From NCBI GenBank assembly GCA_021733945.1, contig JAIPJX010000007.1:1-64000 (forward strand): a stretch of 64,000 bases of DNA, written 5' to 3'. Below, in pieces: positions 1 through 36,282 of this stretch. The stretch's first letter is position 1. The number at the start of each line of letters is the position of its first letter. The notes below the pieces were generated by a model. That model worked only from the letters and a program-made list of their open reading frames with translations, searched no databases and was not told the origin of the DNA. This DNA comes from Verrucomicrobiota bacterium. GTDB lineage: Bacteria > Verrucomicrobiota > Verrucomicrobiia > Limisphaerales > SIBE01. The translations under genes and the position numbers were made by a program.

Positions 1-248
1 CCACCTTCCCCCCTCTCCCATTCCAATATCGGTAGGGCGAAGCGTCCCCGCTGAGCCGTGGCCCCCCCCGGGGTCCAGATCCCTGATCGCTCACCGGGAC
101 GGTTCGCGCCACCTTCCCCCCTTTCCCTTTCCGAATATCGGTAGGGCGAAGCGTCCCCGCTGAGCCGCGAGCCGCCCGAGGTCCAGACCCCCGATCGCTC
201 ACCGGGACGGTTCGCGCCACCTTCCCTCGCGCTACCACCGTCGCGGAT
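1..248. repeat. Tandem copies of the GGTAGGGCGAAGCG hairpin element
   Basis: Two near-identical units of 108 bp lie head to tail; the motif CCACCTTCCC recurs at 1, 109 and 217. Each element runs from a left end starting GGTAGGGCGAAGCGTCCC (31 and 140) to a right end finishing GGGACGGTTCGCGCCACC (about 113 and 221). The two ends are imperfect inverted copies of each other, so a single strand could fold into a long hairpin. The same ends occur at 4203, 12501, 17362 and 23253. No coding sequence is evident before tyrS at 249. Confidence 0.85.
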
Positions 249-4105: not shown

Positions 4106-4202
4106 ATCTCTACCACCCCCTTTCACAAACAAACCTCCCCCAACGGTCCGGACCACTTTCCATTCTGGGAACAGGACCACTGATTTTTAACCGCCGGGGA
4201 CG

Positions 4203-4278
4203 GCTCAGCGGGGACGCTTCGCCCTACCGAAATCGGGACGGGAAATGGGGAATGGTAGCGCGAACCGTCCCGGTGAGC
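4203..4278. repeat. Hairpin element ends, inside-out copy
   Basis: Inverted left end (GCTCAGCGGGGACGCTTCGC..., finishing CCCTACC at 4228) and right end (GGTAGCGCGAACCGTCCCGG from 4254) are separated by about 25 bp. This is the junction found between neighbouring units in the tandem arrays at 1-248 and 12501-13105, in the orientation of the latter. Confidence 0.75.
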
Positions 4279-4284
4279 GATCGG

Positions 4285-12500: not shown

Positions 12501-13105
12501 CCGGGGACGGCTCAGCGGGGACGCTTCGCCCTACCCATATTGGAATGGGAGAGGGGGGAAGGTGGTGCGAACCGTCCCGGTGAGCGGTCAGGGACCTGGA
12601 CCTCGGGTGGCCCACGGCTCAGAGGGGACGCTTCGCCCTACCCATATTGGAATGGGAGAGGGGGGAAGGTGGTGCGAACCGTCCCGGTGAGCGGTCAGGG
12701 ACCTGGACCTCGGGTGGCCCACGGCTCAGAGGGGACGCTTCGCCCTACCGATATTGGAACGGGAGAGGGGGAAAGGTGGCGCGAACCGTCCCGGTGAGCG
12801 GTCAGGGACCTGGACCTCGGGCGACCCACGGCTCAGCGGGGACGCTTCGCCCTACCGACATTGGAACGGGAAAGGGGGAAAGGTGGCGCGAACCGTCCCG
12901 GTGAGCGGTCAGGGACCTGGACCTCGGGCGACCCACGGCTCAGCGGGGACGCTTCGCCCTACCGAGATTGGAACGGGAAAGGGGGAAAGGTGGCGCGAAC
13001 CGTCCCGGTGAGCGGTCAGGGACCTGGACCTCGGGTGGCCCACGGCTCAGCGGGGACGCTTCGCCCTACCGATATTCGAAATTGGAGAGGGAGAAAGGGG
13101 CCGAG
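12501..13105. repeat. 107-bp tandem array of hairpin-element units
   Basis: The landmark CTCAGNGGGGACGCTTCGCC recurs at 12511, 12618, 12725, 12832, 12939 and 13046, an exact 107-bp period: five full units and a truncated sixth. Each unit contains the inverted left end (GGGGACGCTTCGCCCTACC), a ~30-bp A/G-rich spacer, the inverted right end (GCGCGAACCGTCCCGGTGAG) and a core (CGGTCAGGGACCTGGACC...). Units differ at only a few positions. Because 107 is not a multiple of three, overlapping reading frames of 85 residues appear in series; they are artefacts of the repeat. Confidence 0.95.
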
Positions 13106-15698: not shown

Positions 15699-17288
15699 AT
15701 GCCTTCCATCATCGACCTCCACCGAGTCAACCCCCGAAACAAACGGGTTCTCGTCGTCCTCCTGTCCGCCTGTGCGACCTGCCTTTCTTCCCTTGCCGAC
15801 GTGCGTCTCCCGGCGATCTTCGGAGATCATATGGTGCTGCAGCGGTCGCAGAAGGACCCTGTCTGGGGCTGGGCCGACGCCGGTGAAAAGGTAACGGTTG
15901 CAATCGCGGGCCAGACGCATTCGACAACCGCCGATGATCAGGGGCACTGGAAGGTCCTGCTCGATCCGATCCAAGCGATCGGGCCGTTCACTCTGTCCGT
16001 CATCGGCAGGAACCGGATTGAGCTGACCGATGTGCTCGTGGGCGAGGTCTGGGTCTGCTCCGGACAGTCCAACATGCAATGGGCGGTCAACGCCTCGAAC
16101 GACGCGGATCTGGAGACATTGACCGCCAACTTCCCCAACATCCGGCTGATCACGGTGCCGCAGGTGGGAACCCAGGAACCGCAGTCCGATTTTAAAGGCC
16201 AATGGCAGCGTTGTTCGCCGGAGACCGTCGGATCGTTCTCCGGTGTTGGGTATTTCTTCGGACGCCAACTCCACCAGACGCTCAATGTGCCGATCGGCCT
16301 GATCGACAACTCATGGGGAGGATCTTCCTGCGAAGCCTGGGTCCGACGCGATCTTCTCGAAAAGGATCTAAACTACAGGCCATTGATGGAGCGTTGGGAG
16401 GAAACCGAACGAACGTTTGATTGGGACAAAATCCAGGCAGGCTATCAGGAGGATCTGGGCAAATGGCGGGATGCAACGGCCCAAGCAAAGGCGGCCGGCA
16501 CTCCCGCCCCGCCACGACCACGCACCCCCGCCAACCCGCTCGCCGGGCAACATCGCCCCGGAAACCTTTACAACGGCGTGCTCAAACCGATCATCGGCTA
16601 CGGCATTCGCGGTGCCATCTGGTACCAGGGCGAATCCAACGCGGGCCGCGCTTACCAGTATCGGGAGCTCTTTCCGCTGATGATTCAGAACTGGCGGGAT
16701 GAATGGAAGCAGGGTGATTTCCCCTTCTACTGGGTCCAGCTGGCCGATTTCCGCGACGAAAAATCCGAACCCGCCGAAAGCGACTGGGCCGAATTGCGCG
16801 AAGCTCAGACGATGACCATGGACCGACTCCCGAATACCGGCGAAGCGGTCATCATCGACCTGGGGGAAGCCCACGACATCCACCCCCGCAACAAACAGGA
16901 TGTGGCCAAGCGACTGGCCCGACTGGCCCTGGCGCGGGATTACGACATCAACATCGTTTCCCGAAGCCCGCGCTACCAGTCGATGGAGCGAAAGGACGGA
17001 AAAATCGTGCTCACCTTCGATCATGTCGGAGATGGATTGGACACCTTTGACGTCCGTCAACCGATCGGTTTTGCCATCGCGGGCGAGGACAGGAAGTTCG
17101 TATGGGCCAAAGCTCAAATCGCCAGCAAGAACCAGCTGGAAGTCTGGAGCACCGAGGTCCCCTCACCCGTTGCCGTCCGCTATGCCTGGGCCGACAACCC
17201 GGTCTGCAACCTCCAGAACAAGGAGGGCATCCCCGCCACCCCGTTCCGCACGGACGATTGGCCTGGGATTACCGTCGACAAAAAGTAA
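15699..17288 (+). CDS. Sialate O-acetylesterase
   Basis: A 529-residue exported SGNH-hydrolase that removes O-acetyl groups from sialic acids or other acetylated glycans. After a basic start, a hydrophobic signal segment ([19 protein letters not shown]) is followed by the family's N-terminal strand region [15 protein letters not shown]. The catalytic block [14 protein letters not shown] has the nucleophile Ser at about residue 124. [16 protein letters not shown], the strongly conserved [20 protein letters not shown] and the block with the catalytic Asp/His ([13 protein letters not shown]) follow. The C-terminal PFRTDDWPG is also typical. The Cys in the signal region could be a lipobox, but the fit is weak. 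No other glycan genes adjoin it, so its substrate is not set by context. Confidence 0.93.
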
Positions 17289-17312: not shown

Positions 17313-17480
17313 CCAATAGCGGTAGGGCGAAACGCACTGCCATTCGTTTAAGAACTGAAATGGTAGGGCGAAGCGTCCTCGCTGAGCCGCTCAACCGCTT
17401 GTCGGCTCACCGGGACGGATTCGCCCTACCCTCCGAATCTCTTAAACGAATGGCACTGCCATTCGTTTAAGAGATTCGGA
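17313..17480. repeat. Nested palindromes: compact hairpin element flanked by CCATTCGTTTAAG
   Basis: A compact 69-bp copy of the hairpin element (17362-17430) has left arm GGTAGGGCGAAGCGTCCTCG, a ~13-base loop, and right arm ending ATTCGCCCTACC. It is enclosed by CCATTCGTTTAAGA (17340-17353) and its reverse complement (17440-17453). The right flank is itself half of a 47-bp near-perfect palindrome: 23 bp at 17433-17455 match 17457-17479 in reverse complement around one central base. Confidence 0.9.
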
Positions 17481-23252: not shown

Positions 23253-23995
23253 GGTAGGGCGAAGCGTCCCCGCTGAGCCGCCCCCCCCGGGGGGGGCATC
23301 ACCCGCTGACGCCGCCGATGACCGCAGTTTTTTTCCGTCCTCTGCGGCCCGACGCTCACCGGGACGGTTCGCGCTACCTTCCCCCCGCCCCAACGGCGGT
23401 AGGGCGAAGCGTCCCCGCTGAGCCGCCCCCCCGGGGGGGCACCAACCGCTGACGCCGCCTATGACCGCAGTTTTTTTCCGTCCTCTGCGGCCCGACGCTC
23501 ACCGGGACGGTTCGCGCCACCTTTCCCCCTCTCCCTTTCCAATCTCGGTAGGGCGAAGCGTCCCCGCTGAGCCGCGGGTGTCGGCAGGGGAGGGCTGCAG
23601 GGGATGCTCACCGGGACGGTTCGCGCTACCTTCCCCCCTCTCCCTTTCCAATTTCGGTAGGACGAAGCGTCCCCGCTGAGCCGCCCCCCCCCCAGGGGGG
23701 GCATCAACCACTGACGCCGCCGATGACCGCAGTTTTTTTTCCGTCCTCTGCGGCCCGACACTCACCGGGACGGTTCGCGCTACCTTCCCCCCGCCCCAAC
23801 GGCGGTAGGGCGAAGCGTCCGCGCTGAGCCGCGGGTGTCGGCAGGGGAGGGCTGCAGGGGATGCTCACCGGGACGGTTCGCTCCACCTTTCCCCCTCTCC
23901 CTTTCCAATTTCGGTAGGGCGAAGCGTCCGCGCTGAGCCGCTTGGCCACCCGAGATCCAAATCCCCCCCTCACTCACCGGGACGGTTCGCGCCCA
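23253..23995. repeat. Cluster of six hairpin elements with exchangeable cores
   Basis: Elements lie at about 23253-23378, 23398-23521, 23547-23630, 23656-23784, 23804-23886 and 23913-23995. All start GGTAGG(G/A)CGAAGCGTCC and end CTCACCGGGACGGTTCGC..., separated by 15-30 bp pyrimidine-rich linkers (CTTCCCCCCTCTCCCTTTCC-like). The cores fall into three types in the order B, B, A, B, A, C. B has a C-run/G-run plus GACCGCAGTTTTTTTCCGTC, A has GGGTGTCGGCAGGGGAGGGC, and C is unique. No gene is present. Confidence 0.93.
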
Positions 23996-28041: not shown

Positions 28042-31000
28042 CTATTCGATCACGATCCGATAAAACCTCAACGCGGTTGTGAGACCGTCGGGATCGGTCA
28101 CATCCACAGGGCCGGACACCGGTGCGGGAAGCAGATCGGTCCATGTGTTGAAGTCGGTTGTGAACTGCACCCGCGCCGACCGCCCCGCCGGGGCATTCAG
28201 ACGAAACGAAAATCCCGTGGTCCCGAATCGCACATCGGAGACCGGGTCCTGAACCCCCAACACCGCCAACTGGCTCTCAACAGAACCGGCAGGATTGCTC
28301 ACCACAACCGAATAGCCCCCTGCATCGCCCGCGCCGAGTCCTGTCAAAACCAGAATGGCCTCGATCGCCCCGTCAATCGGATTTCCGTCCTTCCTCCACT
28401 GGTAACTCAGGGGCCCCGCTCCGGAAGCCACCACCCTCAAACTCACGTCACTTCCAGCGATCACAACCTCATTGGAAGGCTGCAACGTGATCACCGGAAG
28501 CGTTCTGACAGTCAGCACGGCAGGTTCACTGGCGATCGACTCGGCGCCACGGCTCACCAAAACGGAATAACTCCCGGCATCGGCCGTCGTTGCTCCCGCC
28601 ACCACGTGAAACGCTCCGGTTGCACCGGGGATATCATTTCCTTGGCGCCGCCATTGATAACCAAAAGTCCCCGTTCCTGAAGCCCGAACCGCAAACACCG
28701 CCGTGCTCCCTGCCGTCACGTCCTGGCTCTGAGGCTGCTCAGCCAGACTCAGAGCCACCACCACGCTCAACCGCGCGGGCGCACTTTCCGTGGAGCCCAC
28801 CCCGTTGCTCACCACGACGGTGTAATCCCCAACATGCACCCCGCCCACCGCTGGAACAACCAGACTTGCAGCGGTCGCCCCTGGCAAATCGAGCCCGTTC
28901 AAGCGCCATTGGTAACTCAACACGCCCGCGCCAGACGCATCGACGGTGAAACCAGCCTCGCCCCCCAAAGCCACGGAAAGCGCCTGCGGGGATCGGTTGA
29001 TGACTGGCGCCTGCGTGACGGTCAACACCGCGGCCGCGCTTTGTATCTCCTGCACGCCGCTCCGCACCGTGACCGAGTACAATCCCGCATTGGTTGACTG
29101 CACACTCGGAATCTCGTACACAGCCTGGTCCGCTCCCGCGATCGGATTCCCGTCCCGCACCCACTGGTAGCCGATCGAGTCGGCTCCGCTCACAATCACC
29201 GCAAAACGCACCCGATCCCCGGGAGCGACCTCCTGATTCATCGGCGGCACACTGATCGTCACCGGAACGGTCACATCCAGCTGAGCCACCTGACTTCGCA
29301 CCACACCCGCGAAGTTCGATACGTCCACCTCGTACCGACCCGCATCCCCGGGTTGAACACTGAGAAACTGCAGGGACGCGGAGGTCGCTCCCACAATTGC
29401 GGCTCCGTCCTTGTACCATTGATACTTCAGGTCTGCGCCTCCCGAGGTGATCACGAACAGAGGCACGGCACTCCCTGCGGGCACGGACTGACTCCTCGGC
29501 TGCAGCGTGATCTCCGGAGGCTGCCCCATTTGATAACTCAACCGGGCCCGCCCGGTCACGCCCCCCGCTCCATCCACGGCAATGTAGTAGGTTCGTCCCG
29601 CGGTCACGGACAGATCCAGGACGCTCGTCCGACCGTCGCTACCGCTGTTGTTGTCGCTGCCCTCCAAAGTCAGACTGGAGAGCCCAGCACCCGTATAAAC
29701 GGCCAGAAGCGTATCAAAATCGCTGCCTTCGGTTGAGAATCGGACCACGCCTGTCTGGGTTGCCACGAACCGGATCCATTGCGACGCCCCACCGGCAAGG
29801 TGGCTGTGGTTGGGTTCGCCGGGTTCCTTCACCGAACCGTAGGTGCTGAACACGATGGTGGCGGGTGCCGCACCCTGCTGCCGCAATCCGGTGCCGCTTC
29901 GGCTCAACGCCTGCAATTGCGGACCGGGCAGTGCCGTCCCTGCGGCGTTTGCAAACTTGTCCCAGGCGGAATCCGTCAGCGTGCCCACCTGCACGGACAC
30001 CGGCGGCGTCTCGACGGACCGCGTGCCCGCGGTGACACGCACCGAATAGAGACGGGCGTCGCTCTCCTGTATATTCGTCAGGGCGAGCACCGGACCCGTG
30101 GCACCGACCACTTGCGAACCATCCGCAAACCATTGATACCTCAATCCCGGACCAGTCGCCTCAACCGCAAGCGAAGCATCGTTTCCGACCGCAACCGTGC
30201 GGCCAGCGGGGGCAGCCACAATCGTCGGCACTCGTTCGGCGGTGATCTCGAGGTTAAATCCAACCACAATCTCTCCCGTGGCGCCTGCAAAGCCGCTCAC
30301 ATTCACCAGATAGGCCGTGCCCTGCGCCGCGTTGAACAGGACGCGACTGGAGAGCGATCCTCCTCCGTCGTCGTCGCTGGCGATTTTCGTCAGGTCCGGC
30401 GCCGTTCCGGTGTAAATCGCGAGCACCGTGTCAAACGTGCTCCCAACCGTGCTGAACGTGGCAATTCCACTCTGCGGTGCCCGCCATGCAAACCAGCGAT
30501 CTCCCGTCCCCGGACTTGCGCTCCGTCGAGCAATCCCCGCCCCTGTGCCGGAAGTACTCCCGCCGTAAAACGTGCCCGAAACCTGTTCGATCGGCGCCGG
30601 GGAGTTTCCGGCGGAATTACCCGTAACCAACACCGGAAGGTTCAGCCCCAGTGGGACCGGTTGCGAAGTGACAGCACCGACCGGGTTCTGAACCACCACG
30701 GTATAACTCCCCGCGTCCGCCAACCCGACGCTGCCGAGGGTCAGGGTCGGGTTGGTCGCACCGGGGATATTCCCGCCATTCCTCTGCCATTGATACGTCA
30801 GGGGAGGGCCACCCGATGCAGCCACACTGAAACTGGAGGAGCCATTCAGCGCAATGGTCACACCCACAGGCTGGGTTTGGATCGACGGCGGTGCCAGAAC
30901 CTGCAGAGCCGCCTCCGCGCTCGGGACAGCACCCGCAACATTTCGAACCACAACCCGATACAGGCCCGCCGCATCCGGTTGAACATTTGCAAGGTCAAGC

Positions 31001-34000
31001 CCCGGCGCGGTGGCGCCCGGCAGATCGACTCCGTCCCGCTGCCACTGATAACTCAGAGGCGGCGTGCCGGTGGCGGCGACCGAAAACCGGACGGCGCTTC
31101 CATTGGGAACCGTGCGACTTGTCGGCTGGGTCAGGATCTTCACACCCGAGTTCACGGTCAGATTCGCAACCGCACTGGCCACCGGACCGGAAGCATTGCT
31201 TACAACCACCTGATATGCTCCTGCGGAGTCCGGACGCGCGTTGCCCAACCGGAACGTCGCCCCGGTCGCTCCCTCGATGTCGACTCCATTCCTGCGCCAC
31301 TGAAACGCCAGGGGTGCCGTGCCGGTGGCGGTCACCTCAAAGACGGCGGGCTCTCCTTCGATCACCGTCAGGGTCACCGGATGGGACGCGATCGTCACCG
31401 CCTGAATCACCGCCACCGTTGCAGCCTGACTCGTCACCAATCCCGCCGAATTCTCCACGCGCACCCGATATTCGCCGGCCTGGGCTCCGGAGATATTCTG
31501 AACGGAAAAATTCGGTTCCGTCGCCCCGGGAATGTCCACCCCGTTCAATTGCCACTGATGGACCAGGGGCGCCGTTCCGCTGACCACCACCTTCAACAGC
31601 ACGTTTCCTCCCGCCAAAACCGTGCGCGACTGCGGATCGCGCGTGATGACCGGAGGCCGACTCACCGTCAACAAGGCGGCCTGACTCGCACCCGACCCGC
31701 TCCCATTGCTGACCACGACCGTGTAGGCACCCGCATCATTCGGTCCAACCGCAAGCAAATTCAAAACCCTGCCATTCGCTCCAGGCATGGGGACGCCGTT
31801 GTAGAGCCATTGATACGCGATTGGCGGCGTTCCGGCAGCCGTCACGCTGAAGGAAACATCCGCCCCCTGCGCCACGGTCTGTGCGACCGGATGCTGGGTG
31901 ATGACCACCGGAGCCAACACTTCGAGCACCGCCGGCTGACTCCGGATCGTTCCCGAGGCATCACTCACATCCAAGCGGTAGTTCCCTGCCTGCCCGGACT
32001 GCACGTTGGACAACACGAGCTCCGGGTTGGTGCCACCCGGCACGGGAACCCCGTCCCGGTTCCACTCGTATGTCAGCGGCGGAGCCCCCCCCGCAACGAC
32101 ACGAAACCTGGCTTCACCACCGACCAACACCTTCTGGCTCCGGGGTTGTTCGGCAATTCGAAGAACCAGTTGAACCGTCACCTGCGCCAAGCGGCTCGAA
32201 ACCGACCCAACCCTGTTCGAAATCACGACCGAGTAGGACCCCGCGTTTTCCGATGTCACACTCGGAACCGTAAGAACAGAATTGGTGGCATTGGCGATCG
32301 CGCCTCCGTTGAAGCTCCACTGATAGCTCAACGGCTGGCTACCCGACGCGACGACACTCACCGACAGCACGGCCCCTCCCGCCACGGTCTGATCCACTGG
32401 CTGCCGAACAATCTCCGGAGCGCGCAACACCACGGTCACCGCAAACGTCACGGTGGTCCTGCCGCCGGCCGGTTCACTCGCTTCGATCGTGACGGTCGTG
32501 GTGCCGCTCTGATTCGGGGCCGGTGTCAGACGCACGGTCCGGGTGTTCCCAGTGCCTCCGAACACGATATTGCCCGACGGTATGAGGGTCGCATCACCCG
32601 ATTGCGCCCTGAGTGTCAGATTCCCGATCGGCGTGTCCGGGTCTGACACCGTAAACGCAATCAGCGCCGTCGGAGTGCCCTCCGAAGCGGTTTGATCGGC
32701 AATGGTCGACAGGACCGGCGGCTGGTTCGGCCCGGCACCGACCACGGCGACAAACGATTGCGTATCACTCAGCGAGGGAATACCTCCGTCGGCCACCACC
32801 ACCGTGATCGGATTCGATGTGCCACCCTGAGCCGGAGTCCAGGTCAACACACCACTGACCGGATCGATCACCGCTCCGGCAGGAGCACCGGCACCCAGAC
32901 TGAAGGTCAAGGAATTGGCCGGAAGATCCGAATCACTGGCAACCGCCCGAAGTGTCAGGGTATCCCCCACTCCCAATGTCTGATCCGCAAGAGGACTCAA
33001 CACAGGTGCCCGGTTCACTTCCGTCACCACGATTAAAAAACTCCCGACCGCATCGAGCGGAGACGTTCCACTGTCCACAACCCGAACCGTCACCGGGTGA
33101 GTGGCCGGCCCCTGGCTTTCGTCCGGAGTCCACGAGAACGCACCCGAAACAGGATCCAGCGCCGCACCGGCGGGACCGGATACCATTTCATACCTCAGGG
33201 GGAGATCCGGATCGACTGCGGAGAGGGACAACGCGATGGGCGATCCTTCAGCAACCGATTGCGCGGTCACTGCTGTCAAAACAGGCGGTCGGTTGGAGGG
33301 CGTCACCACGATCGTCACTTCCCGGGTGCCGCTCAGAGCCGGGCTGCCATCGTCCGTCACCCGCACGGTCACCACGTTGGTGCTGGCCAATGCCGCGACA
33401 GGTGGCGACCAGGAGAACACTCCCGTCACAGGATTGATGGCGGCACCGTCCGGAGCCCCCGCATCAAGGCTGTAGGAAAGCCTGTTTGCAGGCAAATCGC
33501 CATCACTCCCCAACACCGCAAAACTCACCGGGTTGCCCGCCTGCACGGTTTGTTCACTCACAGGCGCGATCGTGGGTGCGGCATTCACCTCGTTCACCAC
33601 GACGAGAAACGACTGGTTCGCGCTGAGCGACGGAGTGCCGTTGTCCGAAACCAACACCGAAAACTGTGTCGCAAGGGGTCCCTGGCCTTCCGTCGGGGTC
33701 CAGGATATCACACCTGTGACAGGATCGATCAGCGCCCCGGCAGGTTCCCGCCCGCTCAACGCATATCGCAGCGTTTGCGGCGGAAGGTCGGCATCGGTCG
33801 CCTGCACCTGCACCGTCAACCGTTCGCCTTCATTAACCGATTGCTCGGGAATCAGCCCGACCCGGGGAGCCAGGTTGGAGGGGGAGGCAACCACCGTAAA
33901 CGTTTTGGAATCGCTCAACGGGGGCACTCCACTGTCGGTGACCAACACGGCGATGGTATTCGTGCTGCCAACGGATCCCGGCTCGGGAGTCCAACGAAAC

Positions 34001-36282
34001 ACCCCGGTTTCCGGATCCACGGCGGCTCCCGCCGGCGCTCCGGAATGGAGACTGAACCTCAGTCCATTGGCAGGAAAATCCGGATCGGTCGCGGACAAAC
34101 GCACCGTGAGCGTGTCGCCGTTCCTCACAGTCTGATCCACGAGGGCCCCCAACACCGGCGGAGTGTTCGCCTCTCCCACCACGATTTCAAATGTCTGGGA
34201 GGCGATCAAACCGCCGGCTCCGGAATCCTGAACACTCACCGTGACGGAGTAGGTTCCAGGCCCCTGCTGTTCGCCCGGGGTCCAAAGAAACTGCCCCGTG
34301 CCCGAATCGATGGTCGCTCCGGAAGGCGCTCCAGGTCCAAGACGGAAGGCAAGTTGATTGACTGGAACATCATGATCCACAGCCTCAGCCACCAGACTGA
34401 GAGACTGCCCTTCCAGCACGGATCGCCGCCCCACCGGTGCGAGCACGGGCGGCTGATTCACCTCCGCAACCGAGATGCTGAAATCAGCCGTCGCCGTCAA
34501 GGGGGCGGGACCTCCATCCGAAACGATGACACGAACCGGATGAATGCCAGGCCCCTGGGATTCATCCGGAACCCACTGAAACTCGCCCGTGACCGGATCA
34601 ATGGAGGCGCCGGCCGGCGCGTTCGGCCCAAGACTGAAGGTAAGGCCGGTGCTCGGCAGATCCGGGTCGGCGGCCGCGATTCGGAAGGACACAGGCACGT
34701 TCTCACTGGCTGTCACATTGCCAACCGGCACCAGGACGGGCGCCTGGTTCGCTTCGAGCACATTGACCGTGAAGGTTCGGGCGGCATTAAAACCACCCGG
34801 ATCGGTCGCCCTCACTGTGATGGTGTAAACTCCAGGTCCCTGCGATTCGTCGGGCCTCCATACAAACACCCCCGACTGCCGATCAATCGAAGCCCCGGGA
34901 GGCGCACCCTCGATGGAGTAATCCAGCACATCACCATCGACATCGGTCGTCCTTGCCGCAAATCTCAACTCCGAGCCTTCCGCAAGGACCACGTTGCCAA
35001 GCGGCTCCATGACCGGCTGATCGTTCACGGGCACCACGTCCGCCAGAAAGCTCCTTACGGCGGTGTTGCCCGCCCGATCAGTCACCGTGATCGCAACTGT
35101 GGATTGCCCGTTTGCCTGGGCAACCGGCGAAATCAACATCGATCGTTCCGCGCCGGAACCGGTCAGGGTCAGCCGATCAGCCGGAATCAACTCCAGATTC
35201 GAACCTCGAATCTGGACCTCCAGCACGGGCGCATCCGTTTGGTTGTCACCGATCACAAAGGGCACGGGAAGGAATTCCGTATCTTCTGCCACCCGCTGAT
35301 CGGGAATCAAGCTGACGGTGGGTGCGCTGGCATCCACCGTGATGGGCAGTATGGGCGAAAAATGACTCTCGTTTCCGTTCGCATCCCTGGCTTTGGCGGC
35401 GATGCCGTGCAACCCGTTCGTCAGCGGAGTCGAAACCGTAACCGTCCACTGCCCCGCTGCGTCGGCCGTGGTGGACCCAATGACGGTTTCTCCATCGTAA
35501 ATCACAATCGGCAGATTCGGCTTGGACGTTCCGGAGAATGTCGGGGAGGATACATTCGTCAGATCATCCGTGTCCGAAACGCCTGAATCAGCAGCCGACA
35601 CCAGGTCCGGCACGCTCGGAGGAGGCACGACCGTGATCACGAGACGAGTGCCTTCCGTGGTCCAGGGCGCCGCAGCGGCATTGGCACCGCCGAAGAGCGT
35701 GCCGCCCAATCCTACAGCATCCCGAATCTTCAACTCCCAGACTCCGGTGGCCTGCTCCCCTTCGAACAGGACCATGCTATTGGTAGAGCTGGCATCATCC
35801 ACCTTGAAACTCCCCGTGTAAGGTGCCGATGCCTGTTCAACCGGAATCGGTGCCTCGGCGCTGAAACCCGTTTCCAAAAAACGGTTACCCCGGAGAAAAC
35901 CCTTGAGATCACCCAGCACACCGGAGGCAACCAATCGGACCGTGGTACCGGCCGGACTTCTCAACGTGATCTCCAAATCCTCAATCACCCCAAACCCGGC
36001 CGTCTGGAGGTTTAGGATCAGATCCACATCCTCAATGCCGATGGTACGATCGACGGTTCCGCTGAAGGTGGTCACACCAAACCCGAAGGGTCCCCCTTCA
36101 AAGTTAAACACCTGCGCCGAAACCCGCGCCGTCGAGACAACCCAGCCGCAGATCAGGATCGGCAGCAGGGACAAAAGGGGCACGCTCCACCCGCGTCGTG
36201 GACGCGGGGGATTCCCGCACCGGAGACGCGACAGGCAGTCACCTACAAACCGTGCAGCGTGATTCAGCACTGTTTCCTTCAT
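28042..36282 (-). CDS. Giant exported cadherin/He_PIG- and Ig-repeat protein (2,746 aa)
   Basis: An exported protein: basic N-terminus, hydrophobic segment [20 protein letters not shown] and cleavage near SAQ. The order is a proprotein-convertase P-like beta-sandwich ([20 protein letters not shown], residues ~55-230), an Ig-like module with [17 protein letters not shown], and about ten cadherin/He_PIG-type repeats ('N.APVL..V......G....F...A.D.D.P...L.....G.P.GA.IDP.TG...W.P'). About thirteen Ig-like repeats ('P..Q.V..G....F.V.A.G..PL.YQW..NG..I.GAT...L....V...DAG.Y.VVVSN') follow. Two PPC-like sandwiches ([19 protein letters not shown] and [20 protein letters not shown]) sit among the Ig repeats. 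The end is the FYR-type C-terminal domain shared with the protein at 9058. Its ATG overlaps the stop of the upstream giant gene (ATGA), predicting coupled translation. It is likely adhesive or structural at the surface; the ligand is unknown. Confidence 0.93.

Follow-up and report, generated by a model that had tools for sequence, protein, structure and literature searches.

Six paired repeats and the hairpins at their ends

The window, that is the whole stretch of 64,000 nucleotides analysed here, carries six elements at positions 23253-23995, each composed of a left repeat (L-REP), a core and a right repeat (R-REP). Left ends were located at 23253, 23398, 23547, 23656, 23804 and 23913, and six right ends were found as well:

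23253-23378, plus strand: element B1, L-REP hairpin (23254-23279), 71-nt B core, R-REP hairpin with its tag at 23377 on the minus strand
23398-23521, plus strand: element B2, L-REP, B core, R-REP tagged GTGG
23547-23630, plus strand: element A1, L-REP, 29-nt A core, R-REP
23656-23784, plus strand: element B3, L-REP, B core, R-REP
23804-23887, plus strand: element A2, core exactly that of A1, end variants and upstream spacer unlike those of A1
23913-23995, plus strand: element C, core of the commonest type in the genome, right REP without tag

The first-pass annotation had described six elements with a common left and right end, and all of them lie at the coordinates it gave. One correction concerns the right tag of the last element (C), which is gone: the sequence there is GCGCCCAT where GCGCTACC was expected. 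The cores follow one another as B, B, A, B, A, C, as had been stated. No two of the cores A, B and C are related in sequence, and they are therefore not drifted versions of one core; a common origin by drift was rejected for these three types.

Each end is a GTAG-tagged hairpin of 25-26 nt, with a 7-bp stem, a conserved GA/GA internal loop and a TCC(N) closing loop. The L end consists of GTAG plus GGC-GA-AGCG-tcc(n)-CGCT-GA-GCC (tccc loop in the consensus), and the R end, read inward, of GTAG plus CGC-GA-ACCG-tcc-CGGT-GA-GCG. A single end forms the hairpin when folded alone. The differences between L and R fall on paired stem positions and are changed on both sides of each hairpin.

Genome statistics were taken from 1.95 Mb (36% of the genome), picked partly for holding matches. 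The two diagnostic positions were G/G in 188 heads, C/C in 151 and neither in 26 others, in agreement with the fixed end differences noted earlier. The inner diagnostic pair was Watson-Crick in 340 of 357 heads (shuffled mean 172, maximum 197) and the outer pair in 285 of 357 (shuffled mean 163, maximum 194); in these counts loop length was fitted copy by copy, and many copies are related and hence not independent events. GA/GA was retained in 324 of the 357 heads, and all seven pairs were intact in 247. The GTAG tag was present in 169 of 188 L heads, and the 151 R heads carried GTAG in 73 cases and GTGG in 64. A search for the structure gave 69 hairpins in 449 kb and zero in the reversed sequence.

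The constant "mismatches" of the ends are compensatory pairs within each end's own stem, and L and R are two REP types differing by compensatory base pairs. The ends stay distinct because each is its own hairpin. Of the earlier description of the ends as imperfect inverted repeats, the distinctness was retained, whereas the mismatched arms of one long palindrome had to be replaced by two separate compensated REP hairpins.

Copies, pairing and core types in the window and the genome

Searching with GGTAGNGCGAANCGTCC at no more than 2 mismatches gave 31 matches in the window vs. 0.22 in shuffles. Further copies in the window are as follows:

31-221, plus strand: two further complete L-core-R elements (31-113 and 140-221) of the commonest core type
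4202-4280, no single strand: L-REP (minus strand, tag at 4227) and R-REP (plus strand, tag at 4255) with the tags inside, ~100 nt after a tRNA gene
12509-13070, minus strand: five complete elements arrayed at intervals of 25 nt, and one additional L-REP
17362-17388, plus strand: L-REP, then the first part of a third REP variant (GGCTCACCGGGACGGATT...)

An Rfam scan returned two tRNAs only. The window also holds a 2746-aa ORF (28042-36282, minus strand) with repeated immunoglobulin-like and cadherin-like stretches, as judged by eye from the translation.

The genome is a fragmented 5.4-Mb assembly of 225 contigs that breaks at arrays. A genome-wide search with the end motif GTAGGGCGAAGCGTCC (at most 2 mismatches) found 445 matches vs. 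11 for the reversed pattern, confirming a dispersed family. Exact heads numbered 325 in this genome, compared with 0-5 in 96 relatives. The location is mostly intergenic, with 29% of heads inside ORFs of at least 150 aa vs. 87% of random positions. By rough gene calls, the elements lie between convergent and codirectional gene pairs in 21 and 20 cases, respectively, vs. 9 for divergent pairs.

Among pairs with the tags outside, L/R combinations outnumbered same-type ones by 85 to 15 in the 1.95 Mb. Purely L/R loci accounted for 46 of 68; a same-type pair was present in 11 and the third REP variant in 7. This variant has one additional stem base (GTAGGGCGAATCCGTCCCGGTGAGCC) and is paired with L-REPs at several loci, for example L207:10388-10498 and L046:17895-18020.

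Greedy clustering of the cores at 62% identity resulted in types with 42, 32 and 14 members, and in some rarer types. The commonest type includes core C and the second commonest core A, and core B is rare. We rejected the B core as a repeat in its own right, full-length copies being found at three loci only (the window and contigs C3 and C41; 8 copies); in the 1.95 Mb, the good B-core matches adjoin REPs. Core clusters were mixed in 9 of 18 multi-unit arrays, and array spacers were constant. The octamer ATCCGTGG is over-represented (146 vs. 28 in the reversed sequence of the 1.95 Mb) and forms the core of elements with both ends of R type (core clusters 4 and 7, e.g., L246:7821-7937).

RAYT genes and a second REP family

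The first-pass annotation had proposed looking for a RAYT-like transposase, and one exists in the same genome (G000) on contig C24 (L055:16597-17073, minus strand, 158 aa). L/R elements lie on both sides of it, with REP heads at 16399, 16477 and 16511 and at 17133, 17211 and 17257. The protein scored 77.3 bits against NF047646, just below the NCBIfam cut-off of 80, and its sole PDB match was TnpA-REP (4er8, E = 2e-4), a distant similarity. None of the relatives departs from D76-H77-x-H79 or Y130, and these residues aligned with 4er8; the tyrosine aligned to Y130 is Y115 of TnpA-REP, counted along the 4er8 chain, and Y115 is the catalytic residue of that enzyme (PMC8266576). The C24 RAYT keeps the HUH and Tyr catalytic residues and, judged from its sequence, looks intact. 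A RAYT-type protein that has the HUH motif and the tyrosine, encoded between copies of the same REPs, gives the C24 locus the make-up of a REPtron.

Both RAYTs of this genome were found by homology to the RAYT of an Opitutus MAG (NF047646, 90 bits), which has REPs of the same hairpin class on its flanks. Pfam PF01797 was tried as a transposase finder and abandoned: it detected mainly IS200-like proteins of 330-370 aa, and both RAYTs were missing from its matches. No L/R elements were found near the Pfam Y1_Tnp matches of this genome. Multi-copy IS200-like/RAYT-like proteins of ~330-370 aa (MRRPRFKLS...LMSNHFH...) occur at L031-L041 with no GTAG REPs of this class nearby, and one member of that protein family scored 59 bits against NF047646, below the cut-off.

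Hairpins of this class were found near 6 of 16 RAYT-like loci; several of the others had different GTAG/GTGG hairpins, and for the rest none were found. Related RAYTs of other Verrucomicrobiota are accompanied by this hairpin class with differently compensated stems. The loci of other Y1_Tnp matches gave 3 such hairpins in 118 kb. A pattern that left the inner stem free picked up this hairpin in six further genomes, there with stems compensated in other ways; the two free inner pairs were Watson-Crick in 93 and 94 of the 97 copies transcribed from the listing. A genome of the same genus had one exact head and RAYT-like matches that were weaker only, which fits dependence on the RAYT in this single comparison. 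At its candidate orthologous site, where the downstream gene is kept and the upstream gene differs, a search for REPs of this hairpin class gave none.

The second RAYT lies on contig C215 (L327:2759-3232; NF047646, 89 bits) and is flanked by GGTAGC-GTTTGTCGC-gct-GCGACAAAC and GGTGGA-GTCTGTCGC-gct-GCGACAGAC. This second REP family also forms an L/R pair, in which a compensatory T-A/C-G change separates the two hairpins; the family is unrelated to the first and has the same asymmetric design. The second REPtron (L327:2285-3621) comprises L/R pairs with a core of ~93 nt and adjoins an 11-nt tandem repeat (ACTCCACCCTA).

Class assignment, proposed mode of spread and known systems

We assign the six repeats, at a probability of about 0.9, to a lineage-specific REP/BIME family of non-autonomous REP-core-REP units that a RAYT has disseminated and recombination rearranged. 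The repeats are tagged short palindromes, high in copy number and dispersed between genes, and they form inverted pairs with variable linkers, often in tandem, as in the GTAG super-family. Inverted pairs of two REP types, and more than one spacer type per family, are known from REP/BIME elements (PMC3733652, PMC8266576). A departure from REP/BIME by swapped interiors, as first suggested, is not supported, since heterodimers and several spacer types were already described in these two papers. The suggested handed mobile cassette family is supported in its dispersal, its two distinct ends and its exchangeable cores, and not in being set apart from REP/BIME.

It is established for E. coli and for further model systems that TnpA-REP recognises and cleaves GTAG hairpins in single-stranded form (PMC8266576). 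The RAYT of the present genome (TnpA-REP, HUH/Tyr single-strand endonuclease) would likewise recognise the tagged hairpins on single-stranded DNA, cut beside them and spread the REP-core-REP unit to intergenic sites. The repeats would then serve as recombination substrates: unequal exchange could generate tandem arrays, and exchange within the near-identical ends could swap the cores. The two A cores of the window, identical yet behind different spacers and with different end variants, are as expected from such exchange. Cleavage and transposition are inferred, as are the exchange of cores via the ends and any selective reason for the L/R pairs; movement is suggested by the RAYT linkage, the dispersal and the lineage-specific copy number.

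Possibly the family is immobile now, with spread in the past and only recombination at present (array expansion, gene conversion, core swapping), and the repeats may have been retained to mark the ends of transcripts or to bind proteins. The constant array spacers and the favoured convergent and codirectional gene pairs would fit such a history, but the RAYT has kept its catalytic residues and the majority of hairpins their seven pairs, and we hold present immobility to be the less probable state. It is a question of present activity, and the REP/BIME class is unaffected by it.

It is rather unlikely that the L/R difference itself is functional and that the units are true cassettes with cores exchanged by the RAYT. 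The RAYT might need different left and right hairpins, like IS200/IS605 transposases, or selection might favour compensated heterodimers, in which the small hairpins are kept and the stability of the long palindrome is nearly halved. The idea of palindrome avoidance comes from PMC3733652. Folded as long hairpins, all 77 natural elements compared were less stable than their symmetric counterparts (means -23.1 vs. -42.4 and -39.8 kcal/mol); any mismatch would lower this stability, and therefore palindrome avoidance is plausible and selection is not demonstrated by folding. The preference for heterodimers over homodimers has no obvious explanation (PMC3733652), and the present genome, whose two unrelated REP families are both asymmetric via compensatory pairs, offers a clean case for this question.

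MITE-like or integron-like cassettes, the handed ends being sites of a DDE transposase or site-specific recombinase and the cores their cargo, would also have handed ends, interchangeable cores and one A core recurring between different ends and spacers. Such cassettes are very improbable here, given the GTAG tag and own compensated hairpin on each end and the fact that the gene found beside the elements is a RAYT; a DDE transposase or integrase in association with them was not noticed in passing. Assembly is difficult where several contigs start or end in arrays, but chance or an assembly artefact is practically dismissed by the 445 vs. 11 matches, the covariation and the same hairpin class in independent genomes.

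The REP/BIME assignment places the repeats in a known class. The verrucomicrobium Opitutus terrae is rich in GTAG REPs (Di Nocera et al., 2013; PMC3733652), and since GTAG REPs were thereby already reported from the phylum, the present family is a further case and no new system. It adds REPtrons with intact-looking RAYTs documented in an uncultured verrucomicrobial lineage. With the GTAG REPs, including those of O. terrae (PMC3733652), it has in common the unpaired GTAG/GTGG tag, a short hairpin with imperfect pairing, sub-families whose stem changes are complementary, inverted pairs and heterodimers, variable spacers, clusters that include flanking DNA, linked tyrosine transposases and presence in Verrucomicrobia. 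Compared by description only, the stem sequence and the GA/GA loop may be particular to the present lineage.

The E. coli BIMEs (y, z1, z2) with TnpA-REP (PMC8266576) likewise have two REP types face to face, a conserved two-base stem mismatch, variable linkers, tandem BIME arrays and a RAYT in the genome. The mismatch is GA/GA here and AA/GC in E. coli, and the present RAYT is only distantly similar to TnpA-REP. Pseudomonas REPINs (PMC3116915) also consist of inverted REP pairs as the dispersed unit, whereas the units described here usually combine two different REP types and enclose several unrelated core types.
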